Shown one piece after another: positions 16,725 to 34,633 of a stretch of DNA of 64,000 nucleotides (positions within the stretch are counted from its first letter, which is position 1; each line of letters starts with the position of its first letter). The stretch lies in NCBI GenBank assembly GCA_944389545.1, contig CALXMT010000009.1:1-64000 (forward strand), read 5' to 3'. Both the position numbers and the translations under genes were made by a program. Source of the DNA: an uncultured Kiritimatiellota bacterium. Lineage in GTDB: Bacteria; Verrucomicrobiota; Kiritimatiellia; RFP12; DVOR01. The notes under the pieces were generated by a model that saw only the letters and a list, made by a program, of their open reading frames with translations, searched no databases and was not told where the DNA came from.

Positions 16725-16990
16725 CACAGATTTTGAGCAGATTAAGGGCGTGCTAGCGCACGCTGACTGCCAGAATATTTTAGAACACAGAGGCACACAG
16801 AGGGTTGCACAGAGGAACACAGAGAAGGACTGCCAGAATGATTGGAGAAATCACAAAGAACACAAAGGACCACAAAGGGACACAAAGCACGACGCAGGGG
16901 GCGGGCCGTGCGTGCGCGCAAGGCGCACGTCCGGCCCGAAGGCCTGTAGGGCGTGGCGGGCTTCGCACGCCACGCTTTGGGAGAGGGGCG
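16725..16990. repeat. 266-bp direct repeat, copy 2
   Basis: Second copy of 15386-15651 with no visible indels. With copy 1 it flanks the tRNA pair, so recombination between copies would delete both tRNAs. 16620-16724 is further mosaic ('TTTTCCACAAAGACACAAAA'). Confidence 0.85.
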
Positions 16991-17300
16991 CAGACGCGCC
17001 CCTGGGGTCTTACCGCGATGCGTTTCAGGAGGTGCAGGAGGGGCGGCGATGCCGCCCCGGAGAACGGAGAACAGAGAACGGAGAACAGAACGCCCGACAA
17101 GCGGGCGACAAATGAGGCGCTGTGCAAAGTGGCGTCAGCCGCAAAGCCAAGCCTCCAAGCCTCTAAACTTCCACACAATTATTGAGGCGCTTTTCAAGAA
17201 ACGAAGAAGCGCAAGAGATGGGCACGGTAGAGAGGCCCGGAGGGCCGAACGGTGAAGTGCCCAGGCCCTTGCGTTCCTTTTGTGTCTTCGTGGAGAAAGA
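16991..17300. repeat. Repeat mosaic parallel to 15652-16019
   Basis: Contains 'GAACGGAGAACAGAGAACGG' (17061), 'AAGCCAAGCCTCCAAGCCTC' (17144) and 'AAGAGATGGGCACGGTAGAG' (17212) ending in 'TTTGTGTCTTCGTGGAGAAA'. Module order matches the stretch after direct-repeat copy 1, so the duplicated block is larger than the exact 266 bp. No gene. Confidence 0.65.
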
Positions 17301-17331
17301 GACCTACCAAGCCGCTAAGCTTCCGGACTTC

Positions 17332-17545
17332 CATTCAACGACAGGTTTTGGAGATGGCGTATTCTGTTTCTAACACGTGGGTTAATTTTCGTTTCAGAAA
17401 TCGAATGACAGGTCTTTTGCAAAGGTGCGTGGAGCAGCATGAAGCAACCACGCCTGATCTTTGACAACTGAATGTCTCTGTTTGTATCGCACGATTGACT
17501 ACGAGGGAACGGTCTCAAGGCGGCCTTCTTTATATAAAGGCACTG
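17332..17545 (+). ncRNA. Duplicated ~214-nt structured element, copy A (candidate ncRNA)
   Basis: Homologous along its length to the reverse complement of 32378-32590, with many point differences but shared blocks: GACAGGT twice (17339, 17407), 'AAAGGTGCGTGG' pairing with CCACGCC (stem 17427-17432 / 17448-17453, loop differs between copies), a boxA-like 'TGATCTTTGACAACTGAATG' (17455-17474), 'TGTTTGTATCG', 'GGTCTCA', and a final AT-rich hairpin (CTTTATATAAAG). No conserved open frame. Its orientation is chosen by the boxA-like motif. Function unknown. Confidence 0.5.
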
Positions 17546-17557
17546 TTTGGTGCCCTA

Positions 17558-17896
17558 CCAATACTGTCCGGGGAAAAGTGGAACCGCAAAGACGCGAAGG
17601 GGGCGCGAACCGCTTCGGGCTCCATCGGTCGCTCTGCGGCTTCGCCGCTGACCGCGACCGCCGCCCTCCGTTTCGCGCCGTGAGATAAGAAGTCAAGGTG
17701 TGGAGCGGAGCCCCACCAACAAAACCAAGCTTCTAAACCTCCAAGCCGCGAAACTTCCCAATTCACTTTTGAGCGCACCTTCAGGGACGCGATAGCGTGG
17801 AAATCCCAAGGGCGGCGTGACCACAGGCAACGACGGAGCCTGCAGGGTTTCCACGCAAGAGCGTCTTTGCGGTAAAACTTCCCCGAACATTATTGG
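17558..17896. mobile_element. Inverted-end-bracketed non-coding element
   Basis: Bounded by CCAATACTGTCCGGGGAAAA (17558-17577) and the inverted AACTTCCCCGAACATTATTGG (17876-17896). Interior: the GC-rich module with 'GCGGCTTCGCCGC' (inverted, 17585-17683), 'AACCTCCAAGCCGCGAAAC' and a 'GGGACGCGATAGCGTGGAAA' module shared with 59090. No coding sequence. Confidence 0.5.
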
Positions 17897-32151: not shown

Positions 32152-32329
32152 CACGCCTATCCTCTTGACTTCTCGTGTCAAGCGTGAAAGGATGTGGGGC
32201 AATGCCCCACACATCCAATCAGCCCATGCAGACGCAAAGCGCCAAACCTTCCACGGCTATCAGCAGGTGTCCGTCAGAGCGCCTACGTCTTTGCTGCCCC
32301 TTCTTTTCCCCGGACAGTATTGGCCCAAC

Positions 32330-33052
32330 CCAACACTGTCCGGGGAAAGTCCGCGCATCAATCTGTAGGGCGTCTGACTCCACCTTATATATAAGGCCAT
32401 CGTGAGACCGCTTCCCTACGGTCAATCATCCGATACAAACACCTACATTCAGTTGTCAAAGATCAGGCGTGGGAGCTTCATGACTGCACCACGCACCTTT
32501 GTCAAAAACCTGTCATCTGATTCTCTAAATCGATATTAATCACGCGCTCTATAGCAAGATACGCCATCCCCGAGACCTGTCATTGGATTCCAATCGCCAC
32601 ACCATAGGGAGCCGCAGATTTAGGCAGATTAAGGGCATGCTACCGCACGCAGGACAAGGGTCGGCTTCGCCGCCCCGGAGAACGGAGAACAAAGCGTGCA
32701 GGCCCGAAGGGAAAAACCTTCCACGGCCACGGAGAACAGAGAGCGCGCGGCAAGCGCGCGACGGGTGAGGCGCTGTGCGTGAGCGGCTTTAGCCGCAAAG
32801 CCAAGCCTCCAAGCTTCTAAACTTCCAAGCTTCCACAAAGGCGTATGCCGTCCTATCCGTCCTATAGGTCCCACCGCATCGCCTTCGGGCACTTTCCAAG
32901 AAACGCCAGAAGCGCAAGGGATGGGCACGGCAGAGAGGCCCGAAGGGCCGAACGGTGCGCGCCATTTTCTAATCAGCTAATCAGCTAATCAGCCGGGCGC
33001 TCCGATGGAGTGCCCGCGTCTTTGCGGTCTCCATTTTCCCGAACACAGTCGG
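32330..33052. mobile_element. Largest inverted-end-bracketed element, carrying the ncRNA-like copy B
   Basis: Left end CCAACACTGTCCGGGGAAA (32330-32348), right end ATTTTCCCGAACACAGTCGG (33033-33052). The left end lies head-to-head with an opposite copy, TTTTCCCCGGACAGTATTGG (32304-32323), forming a long interrupted palindrome. Inside are the 213-nt element copy B, the 'GAACGGAGAACAAAGCGTGC' module, 'AAGCCAAGCCTCCAAGCTTC' and the 'GCAAGGGATGGGCACGGCAG' module. No gene. 32152-32300 is further module sequence. Confidence 0.5.
32378..32590 (-). ncRNA. Duplicated ~213-nt structured element, copy B (candidate ncRNA)
   Basis: Reverse complement aligns with 17332-17545. Shared: two GACAGGT boxes, the AGGTGCGTGG / CCACGCCTGAT hairpin with a different loop, the boxA-like motif (complement of 32447-32466), TGTTTGTATCG, and a final AT hairpin whose paired bases differ from copy A but still pair (CCTTATATATAAGG). 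Compensating changes argue for selection on RNA structure, though only two copies can be compared here. Confidence 0.5.
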
Positions 33053-33085: not shown

Positions 33086-34633
33086 ATGGCAGGCATGGAG
33101 GCTACAAGCGATTTCAGTCGAGAGGTCTCGGTGATCCGGGAAATCAGTTCGGCGATTGTGCACGAACGCGACCCACAACGTCTATTGAGCACGGCGCTGG
33201 GGGTGCTGAACCGACGGATGGGGATGTTGCGGGGCACCATCACGTTGCTGCATGACGGTACCCTAACAATCGAGGCCTCGCAGGGGCTGGACGAACGGGC
33301 GCGCAGTCTGGGACGTTACCGACTGGGCGAGGGCATCACGGGTCGTGTGGCCGAGACCGGCAAGCCCGAAATCGTGGCAGACGTGAGCACAGACCCGCGT
33401 TTCCTAAACCGGACCGGCGCCCGCGCCGCAGGGGAGCGCGTGGCCTTCATCTGCGTGCCGGTCATCCTGCGGAACACCGTGATCGGCACGTTGAGCTTCG
33501 ACCGCCGCGTGGAGCCGGGGATGGACTTGGGGCGTGACGCCGCGCTCTTGGAAATCGTGGGCAACCTGACGGCGGGCGCGGTGGGCGTGCTATTGCAGAG
33601 CCAAGAGGAACGGCGGGCGTTGGAAGACGAGAACCGCCGTCTGCGCGACCTATCGGAAAATCCCGGCGAACTGGTGGGCAACTGTTCGGCGATGCGGCGA
33701 GTCTACGCCCAAATCCGTCAGGTGGCATCCTCCGATGCGACGGTCCTGCTCCGCGGGGCCACAGGGACCGGCAAGGAATTGGTGGCGCGGGCCATCGTAC
33801 GTCTCTCGGGGCGGGCGGGCAAACCCTTCGTGGCGCTGAACTGCGCGGCCCTGCCCGAGGCGCTGGTGGAGAGCGAACTCTTCGGCCACGAACGAGGCGC
33901 CTTCACCGGCGCGACAGAGCGCCGAATCGGGCGCGCGGAGGAGGCCGATGGCGGCACCCTTTTCTTGGACGAGGTGGGCGACCTGTCGCCGCAGACGCAG
34001 GTGAAACTGTTGCGCTTCCTGCAGGAGCGGACCTTCAGCCGCATCGGGAGCAACAAAGAGTTGCGGGCCGACGTGCGCTTCATCGCCGCGACGAGCCGCG
34101 ACCTGGAGGCCCTGATGCGCGAGGGACGCTTCCGCGAGGACCTCTACTATCGGCTGAACGTCTTCCCCATCGCGATACCCGACCTCGCGGCGCGGCGGAG
34201 CGACATCGTGTTGCTGGCGGAGCACTTCATGGCGAAATACGCGGTGAAGTACCGCAAGCAAATGACGCGTCTCTCCACCACCGCCATCAACATGCTCATG
34301 GCCTACCACTGGCCGGGCAACGTGCGCGAGTTGGAGAACTGCATCGAGCGCGCGGTCCTCACCTCCACCGACGGTGCCATCCACGGTTACAACCTGCCGG
34401 CCTCGCTCCAAACGGGCGAACGCGCCGGCAACGCCCTCCTGCCGGATGGCCATCCGCCGCTACACGTGATGGTCGCCAGTTACGCCCGCGAACTCATTGT
34501 CGATGCCCTCAAGCGCAACAACGGCAACCTCTCCGCCGCCGGCCGCGCACTCGGCGTCTCGCCGCGCATGATGAACTACAACATCAAGCGCTACGGCATC
34601 ACGCCGGAGTGGTACCGCCAAAACACGGATTAA
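33086..34633 (+). CDS. NifA-type sigma-54-dependent activator (GAF, AAA+, Fis HTH)
   Basis: 515 aa. GAF sensor domain (~20-175), short coiled linker (EERRALEDENRRLRDL), then the AAA+ domain with Walker A GATGTGKE (from ~224), the sigma-54 contact loop GAFTGA (271-276), Walker B GGTLFLDEVGDL, and arginine-finger region (FREDLYYRLNVFPI); a Fis-type HTH ends it (~478-505, NGNLSAAGRALGVSPRMMNYNIKR). It lacks a receiver domain, so it is NifA-like, not NtrC-like. Neighbouring gltDB and glnN have perfect sigma-54 promoters, so it is their likely activator. The ATG at 33086 has GAAGG 9 bp upstream; ATG 33095 is an alternative. A TATAAT overlaps 33082-33087. Confidence 0.94.
   Translation: MAGMEATSDFSREVSVIREISSAIVHERDPQRLLSTALGVLNRRMGMLRGTITLLHDGTLTIEASQGLDERARSLGRYRLGEGITGRVAETGKPEIVADVSTDPRFLNRTGARAAGERVAFICVPVILRNTVIGTLSFDRRVEPGMDLGRDAALLEIVGNLTAGAVGVLLQSQEERRALEDENRRLRDLSENPGELVGNCSAMRRVYAQIRQVASSDATVLLRGATGTGKELVARAIVRLSGRAGKPFVALNCAALPEALVESELFGHERGAFTGATERRIGRAEEADGGTLFLDEVGDLSPQTQVKLLRFLQERTFSRIGSNKELRADVRFIAATSRDLEALMREGRFREDLYYRLNVFPIAIPDLAARRSDIVLLAEHFMAKYAVKYRKQMTRLSTTAINMLMAYHWPGNVRELENCIERAVLTSTDGAIHGYNLPASLQTGERAGNALLPDGHPPLHVMVASYARELIVDALKRNNGNLSAAGRALGVSPRMMNYNIKRYGITPEWYRQNTD

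Follow-up and report, generated by a model that had tools for sequence, protein, structure and literature searches.

A dispersed intergenic repeat of one Kiritimatiellota genus carries a covarying hairpin and an rRNA-like boxA, apparently as cargo of IS4-type elements

What is the role of a boxA sequence in intergenic DNA? BoxA has been described for rRNA operons, nut sites and certain CRISPR leaders. In the window, by which we mean the whole 64,000-nt stretch analyzed here from an uncultured Kiritimatiellota bacterium, the 18-nt sequence GATCTTTGACAACTGAAT is identical in two elements of opposite orientation, in agreement with the original prediction, which had called the boxA-like motif nearly invariant. 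The alignment of the two cores (Table 1), predicted to run from end to end, was borne out over nearly the whole length: in a blastn comparison, copy 1 (17332-17545, plus strand) matched 32386-32588 on the minus strand with 79% identity over query positions 2-203 (E ~1e-37). The element had also been described as present in two copies, and this was not upheld. The genome from which the window is derived (G000; 2.53 Mb, 61 contigs) yielded 13 blastn matches and 18 copies in a covariance-model search, both numbers being lower bounds (at least 13 and at least 18, respectively).

The same covariance search was applied to 59 related genomes. At least 48 copies were found in the congener G003, and one or two in each of G005, G008 and G013, while the repeat was absent from the other 12 congeners and from 42 genomes of the same order. 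With a second, sequence-only model, 388 genomes of the phylum were screened, and one of the 199 genera represented was positive. A pattern search with the conserved motif 2 in 85,000 species genomes returned Kiritimatiellaeota MAGs, Candidatus Spyradenecus faecavium and one isolated match in Paenibacillus. Viral contigs were free of motif 2 in this search, and a phage origin was rejected on that ground. Rfam gave no match to the repeat up to an E value of 10. The repeat family is non-coding and intergenic and, among the Kiritimatiellota sampled, restricted to one genus.

Table 1. Features of the two repeat copies and of the adjoining elements (window coordinates)
Feature	Position	Strand	Basis or remark
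Copy 1, core	17332..17545	+	alignment, blastn, covariance model
Copy 1, motif 1 CAACGACAGGTTTTGGAGATGGCGTATTCTG	17336..17366	+	alignments; within the 68-nt unit that is tandem or missing in other copies
Copy 1, motif 2 GAATGACAGGTCTTTTGCAAAGGTG	17403..17427	+	among the most conserved blocks of the family
Copy 1, hairpin P1, directly 5' of boxA	17427..17453	+	covaries across the family
Copy 1, rRNA-type boxA GATCTTTGACAACTGAAT	17456..17473	+	
Copy 1, AT-rich palindrome CCTTCTTTATATAAAGG	17524..17540	+	sequence conserved, no covariation
Adjacent inverted-repeat element (MITE) between copy 1 and pheT; ends CCAATACTGTCCGGGGAAA / CTTCCCCGAACATTATTGG	17558..17896	.	
Copy 2, core	32378..32590	-	alignment, blastn, covariance model
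Copy 2, motif 1	32555..32586	-	
Copy 2, motif 2	32494..32518	-	
Copy 2, hairpin P1	32467..32494	-	
Copy 2, boxA GATCTTTGACAACTGAAT	32447..32464	-	
Copy 2, AT-rich palindrome CCTTATATATAAGG	32383..32396	-	
Terminal inverted repeat of IS4 type closing copy 2 on its 3' side; reads TTTCCCCGGACAGTGTTGG on the minus strand	32330..32348	-	
Second, opposed copy of that inverted repeat, 6 nt further, starting the next element	32305..32323	.	

The family is modular. Its members comprise, in this order, (i) motif 1 (CAAATGACAGGTCTnGGAGATGGCGTATC), (ii) a spacer of variable sequence with a conserved TTTAG at its end, (iii) motif 2 (AATGACAGGTCTTTGGCAARGGTG), (iv) hairpin P1, and (v) boxA (GATCTTTGACAACTGAAT), followed on the 3' side by about 50 variable bases with TTTGTAT and usually, with exceptions, by the AT-rich palindrome (CCTTATnTATAAGG). 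The sequence AATGACAGGTCT is common to both conserved motifs of each copy. A 68-nt unit starting with motif 1 occurs twice in tandem in locus L090 and is missing in L086, L088 and L099 (all in G003). A recognizable boxA is missing in 19 of the 66 copies, some of which have other sequences on their 3' side. A sister group in G003 (L089, L091, L092, L093 and L097) has motifs 1 and 2, no P1-boxA, and another 3' module (GTGTATGATACATTCACCGGCCTCTAAGCCGC...), which in at least one case is located inside a complete unit bounded by terminal inverted repeats and a target duplication. A small peptide beginning at motif 2 (GGAGGnnATGACAGG) was rejected, the reading frame reaching TGA after four codons in several copies.

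The relationship of this boxA to those of the host rRNA operons was examined by searching G000 with the 18-mer. At up to three mismatches, 19 matches were found, compared to two for a reversed-pattern control. Five of them belong to rRNA and 12 to repeat copies; one is in a degraded-looking copy (C6:45813), and the last, with three mismatches, is taken as a chance match. The rRNA boxes consist of four leader boxes (GATCTTTGAGAATTGAAT) and one box in the tRNA-Ile/23S spacer (GATCTTTGACAATTGAAC). Three of the leader boxes lie at contig ends, and the sequence surrounding them is that of the box preceding the 16S gene on contig C61. The boxA of the element matches both the leader and the spacer boxes of G000 at 16 of 18 positions. 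It matches the rRNA leader boxA of congener G011 at all 17 positions of the 17-nt core that was searched, and the rRNA boxes of G001, G005 and G010 fit GATCTTTGANAAYTGAA; these congener boxes were identified by the common leader sequence, Rfam having given no rRNA in the short contig ends concerned. In six genomes of the genus, the rRNA leader folds into a stem-loop that precedes boxA on the 5' side, as in the element. G000 also encodes NusB (PF01029 at C26:24383-24661, E 2e-28). Judged by these comparisons, the boxA of the element is of the type found in the host's own rRNA operons.

The conservation of boxA contrasts with the decay around it. All 18 nt are exact in 35 of the 47 boxA-bearing copies, in which the spacers are nearly randomized, and among the G000 copies boxA is 95% identical, compared to 39% for a 27-nt spacer window of the same copies, although the copies were recruited through conserved motifs, which inflates the apparent conservation of boxA and biases the comparison with the spacer. 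Spacer decay within copies that retain an intact boxA is not expected under neutral decay. The shared sequence could be taken to mean that the repeats are remnants of rRNA leaders or spacers spread through recombination, since the two have boxA and 2-5 flanking bases in common. However, only 17-23 nt of the element resemble the leader or spacer, nothing in rRNA corresponds to motifs 1 and 2 or to the AT-rich palindrome, and Rfam detects no rRNA in the element. A leader remnant was ruled out on account of this confinement of the likeness to boxA, and we regard such an origin as highly improbable.

It had been predicted that the stem next to boxA is kept while its loop changes, and this is the case in the window: GCGTGG/CCACGC of P1 is intact in both copies and the loop differs. 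In the family, the stems themselves differ yet still pair (e.g., GCGTGG/CCACGC, GGGGCGA/TCGCCCC, GGATG/CATCC and GCGGAG/CTCCGT). A permutation test was performed with 19 non-redundant copies, in which the 5' half of the hairpin was paired with its own 3' half or with those of other copies. The mean energy was -13.0 kcal/mol for own halves versus -9.2 kcal/mol for swapped ones, and a mean this low was not obtained in any of 20,000 permutations. The P1 hairpin is under RNA-level constraint; covariation among homologues, on which the original prediction had been content to be judged, was found in the hairpin beside boxA. The AT-rich palindrome behaved differently. Pairing with different bases, as predicted, is seen in the two window copies, but covariation was absent in the family (12736 of 20,000 permutations), where it is the sequence of the palindrome that is conserved. 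Another hairpin, placed after boxA, was discarded, its own halves pairing no better than swapped ones (8242 of 20,000), and the folding energy of the whole 229 nt gave an uninformative z = -0.4. A long-range pairing between motif 2 and boxA, suggested by RNAalifold, was also rejected, being not clearly above shuffled sequences (334-656 of 5000 were as good). Motif 2 contains GGTCTTTGRCAA (e.g., within 17403-17427), which is itself boxA-like; its 3' part is complementary to boxA, a match that is not significant against shuffles.

Several observations point to mobility of the repeat. The sequence TTTCCCCGGACASTATTG is located at or after the end of many copies, and its reverse complement forms the beginning of some copies, about 87 nt upstream; the inverted repeats of the carrier elements are CAATASTGTCCGGGGAAA. 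The boxA-bearing locus L055 is a 431-nt unit bounded by inverted repeats and flanked by a perfect 9-bp target duplication (ACCTTCCCT), and L091, which belongs to the type without boxA, spans 467 nt as a unit of this kind and also has a perfect 9-bp duplication (TCGCTGAAG). L039 of G000 and L080 of G003 are 98.6% identical over 211 nt, with otherwise unrelated flanks. The inverted repeat has 122 matches in G000 at one mismatch. In G003, L193 contains a fragment of a DDE transposase of the IS4 family (NF033592, E 2e-30, which is below the curated cut-off; PF01609, E 8e-18). Its stop codon is followed by TTTCCCCGGACACTATTGG, and the fossil transposase ends directly at the same inverted repeat. 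The last 30-36 residues of this protein recur with 90-94% identity where contigs of G008 and G007 end, a pattern to be expected if an insertion sequence is present in many copies and interrupts assembly. An intact transposase of this kind was not found in G000.

Most copies, including those of the window, no longer have both inverted repeats or a target duplication. Neither window copy is a complete unit: copy 2 ends in the 3' terminal inverted repeat only, and copy 1 abuts another element (Table 1), which agrees with the prediction that each copy adjoins an element end. As judged from the inverted repeats and target duplications, the boxA module is most probably the cargo of non-autonomous IS4-type elements (MITEs) that move now or did so formerly. 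A plain selfish MITE would need no transcriptional role for boxA, which would be a chance capture, the motifs and the hairpin acting as DNA (binding of transposase or of host proteins, cruciform formation). The inverted repeats, the target duplications and the IS4-family transposase fossil would all be explained, as would the amplification of copies without boxA (L089, L091 and L093). We nevertheless consider this rather unlikely, because boxA is exact in so many copies with nearly randomized spacers, and because the hairpin is placed 5' of boxA, in the order of rRNA leaders.

The copies lie between genes. The gene downstream of boxA-bearing copies is co-directed in 24 cases and opposed in 19, and the subfamily with a 30-nt hairpin gave a ratio of 13:5 (p = 0.1), the gene orientations being those of a home-made gene caller. 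Orientation to neighboring genes is random, and the repeat is therefore not a leader of particular genes. The predicted alternative of an unknown structured RNA or a mobile boxA leader stands insofar as the hairpin covaries, boxA is rRNA-like and the module is found inside IS4-type elements bounded by inverted repeats and target duplications; it is not supported where "leader" implies a particular downstream gene. Six G000 copies, copy 1 upstream of pheT among them, lie beside the same gene in G003, and a regulatory leader, e.g., of pheT, would account for such matching positions. Apart from the random orientation, two facts speak against it: the pheT copy is upstream of a conserved promoter-proximal stretch, and the element is absent from the pheT upstream regions of G008, G001, G005, G015 and other congeners. 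This role is very unlikely. The distribution at pheT indicates an insertion that predates the split of G000 and G003 and is not ancient. Copy 2 (within 32305-32590) and L056 of G003 are located in the same intergenic region by a sigma-54 activator gene (33086-34633) in opposite orientation, the result of either independent insertions or an inversion.

G000 has a CRISPR array beside cas1 in which CTTCTCCCCGCACCCGCGGGGATGATCC is repeated at least 50 times; the array reaches the end of contig C27 (L190:11757-14849) and looks like type I-E. An orphan CRISPR leader or a fossil CRISPR might be considered for the repeat, given the boxA of some CRISPR leaders and the tandem 68-nt unit of L090. However, the 68-nt units copy each other rather than forming repeats with unique spacers, and in G000 no boxA was found in the DNA that separates the array from the cas genes. 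As the element contains no array and the host's own CRISPR leader has no boxA, a CRISPR leader was ruled out; we find this explanation scarcely credible.

Could the repeat encode an independent small RNA, each copy having its own promoter and the boxA binding or titrating NusB-S10, or serving another role in trans? The orientation independent of neighboring genes, the near-invariance of motifs 1 and 2 beyond boxA and the covariation of P1 are consistent with this, and motif 1 contains the weakly promoter-like ATGACA-16-TATCTT. On the other side, the last T of the putative -10 box varies between copies, and neither a promoter-like nor a terminator-like site was detected when copy 1 and its surroundings were scanned. 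A sigma-70 promoter at TTGACA, considered separately, was likewise not found in the scan. We hold a small RNA of this kind to be unlikely.

The arrangement of the element is best compared with known antitermination sites. In Escherichia coli, the order on rRNA is boxB-boxA-boxC, and the role of the boxB hairpin there, without N protein, has been called puzzling (PMC10250234). Like the boxB-boxA sites of rRNA operons (leader and 16S-23S spacer), the element has the genus's own boxA and a stem-loop 5' of it. Unlike them, it is dispersed in intergenic DNA on mobile elements with no rRNA downstream, has the extra motifs 1 and 2 and the AT-rich palindrome, and in the blocks inspected has no boxC of recognizable E. 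coli type (UCUGUGUGGG). In lambda-type nut sites, boxA and a hairpin likewise act jointly on RNA polymerase; there, boxB follows boxA and the phage N protein is required, whereas the element lacks a phage context and its motif 2 is on no viral contig. What it would share with the boxA-containing CRISPR leaders is a boxA located outside rRNA, on a long RNA that is not translated; it differs in having no array, and the CRISPR leader of G000 itself has no boxA.

Functional cargo is carried by bacterial MITEs and by short intergenic repeats such as Correia/NEMIS, RUP, BOX and ERIC. The present repeat resembles them in being short, intergenic, non-coding, multi-copy, lineage-restricted and partly bounded by terminal inverted repeats, and differs from them in that its cargo is a covarying hairpin together with a boxA of the rRNA type, and in its IS4-family ends. 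To our knowledge, no mobile repeat with this combination has been described, and a partial literature search revealed no work on MITEs with antitermination sites. The parts, MITEs and boxA, are already known; their union, an rRNA-type boxA and a covarying hairpin on a mobile repeat, appears to be new.

The repeat family, its mobility, the identity of its boxA, the RNA-level constraint on P1 and the presence of NusB are observed, and the model proposed here starts from them. The best reading, held with about even confidence, is that of a MITE whose cargo is a self-contained, rRNA-like signal made up of hairpin and boxA; this signal probably protects transcripts running through the insertion from Rho. 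Sense transcription through the element would expose the nascent hairpin-boxA, which would bind NusB-S10 (NusE); this pair would join NusA/NusG on RNA polymerase, as on rRNA operons, and the resulting complex would make the untranslated transcript Rho-resistant. Consequently, the insertion would cause little downstream polarity, and any RNA made from the element itself would be completed, to the presumed benefit of the element or of its host. More tentatively, a class of mobile elements may have taken up the host rRNA antitermination signal, for non-polar insertions or for completing element-encoded RNA, as a portable, self-amplifying processive module.

Several findings stand against this model. 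Copy 1 and its surroundings gave no promoter- or terminator-like site in the scan, most copies have incomplete ends, and the apparent conservation of boxA is inflated by the way in which copies were recruited. With random orientation, a gene located downstream could not profit from roughly one insertion in two. In addition, the 19 copies without boxA keep motifs 1 and 2, and boxA is therefore not essential to the family. The conservation of motif 2 is not accounted for by the model. Nor does the model explain why orientation is random and why motifs 1 and 2 are invariant, and these points keep the small-RNA and DNA-level explanations alive. That antitermination signals can travel as mobile cargo would be demonstrated by a dispersed repeat in which a covarying hairpin precedes a boxA of rRNA grade, and the dozens of natural copies with varied hairpins provide material for asking what an antitermination site needs besides boxA.

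The intergenic DNA around the repeats (window positions 16800-17330, 32650-33040 and elsewhere) is crowded with short repeats, namely GAGAACGGAGAACAG, AAGCCTCCAAGCTTCTAAACTTCC (in 8-nt steps) and CACAAAGACACGAAGG. In L042 and L048, such short-repeat filler is located within P1, and the closing stem is still kept. The halves of some copies at matching places in two genomes differ in their similarity: L033 and L087 share 95% identity up to and including motif 2 and 60% beyond it; L042 and L083 share 100% identity in the 117 nt that start at boxA and 81%, with gaps, in the part preceding boxA. Sequence exchange seems to have taken place around the P1 hairpin.
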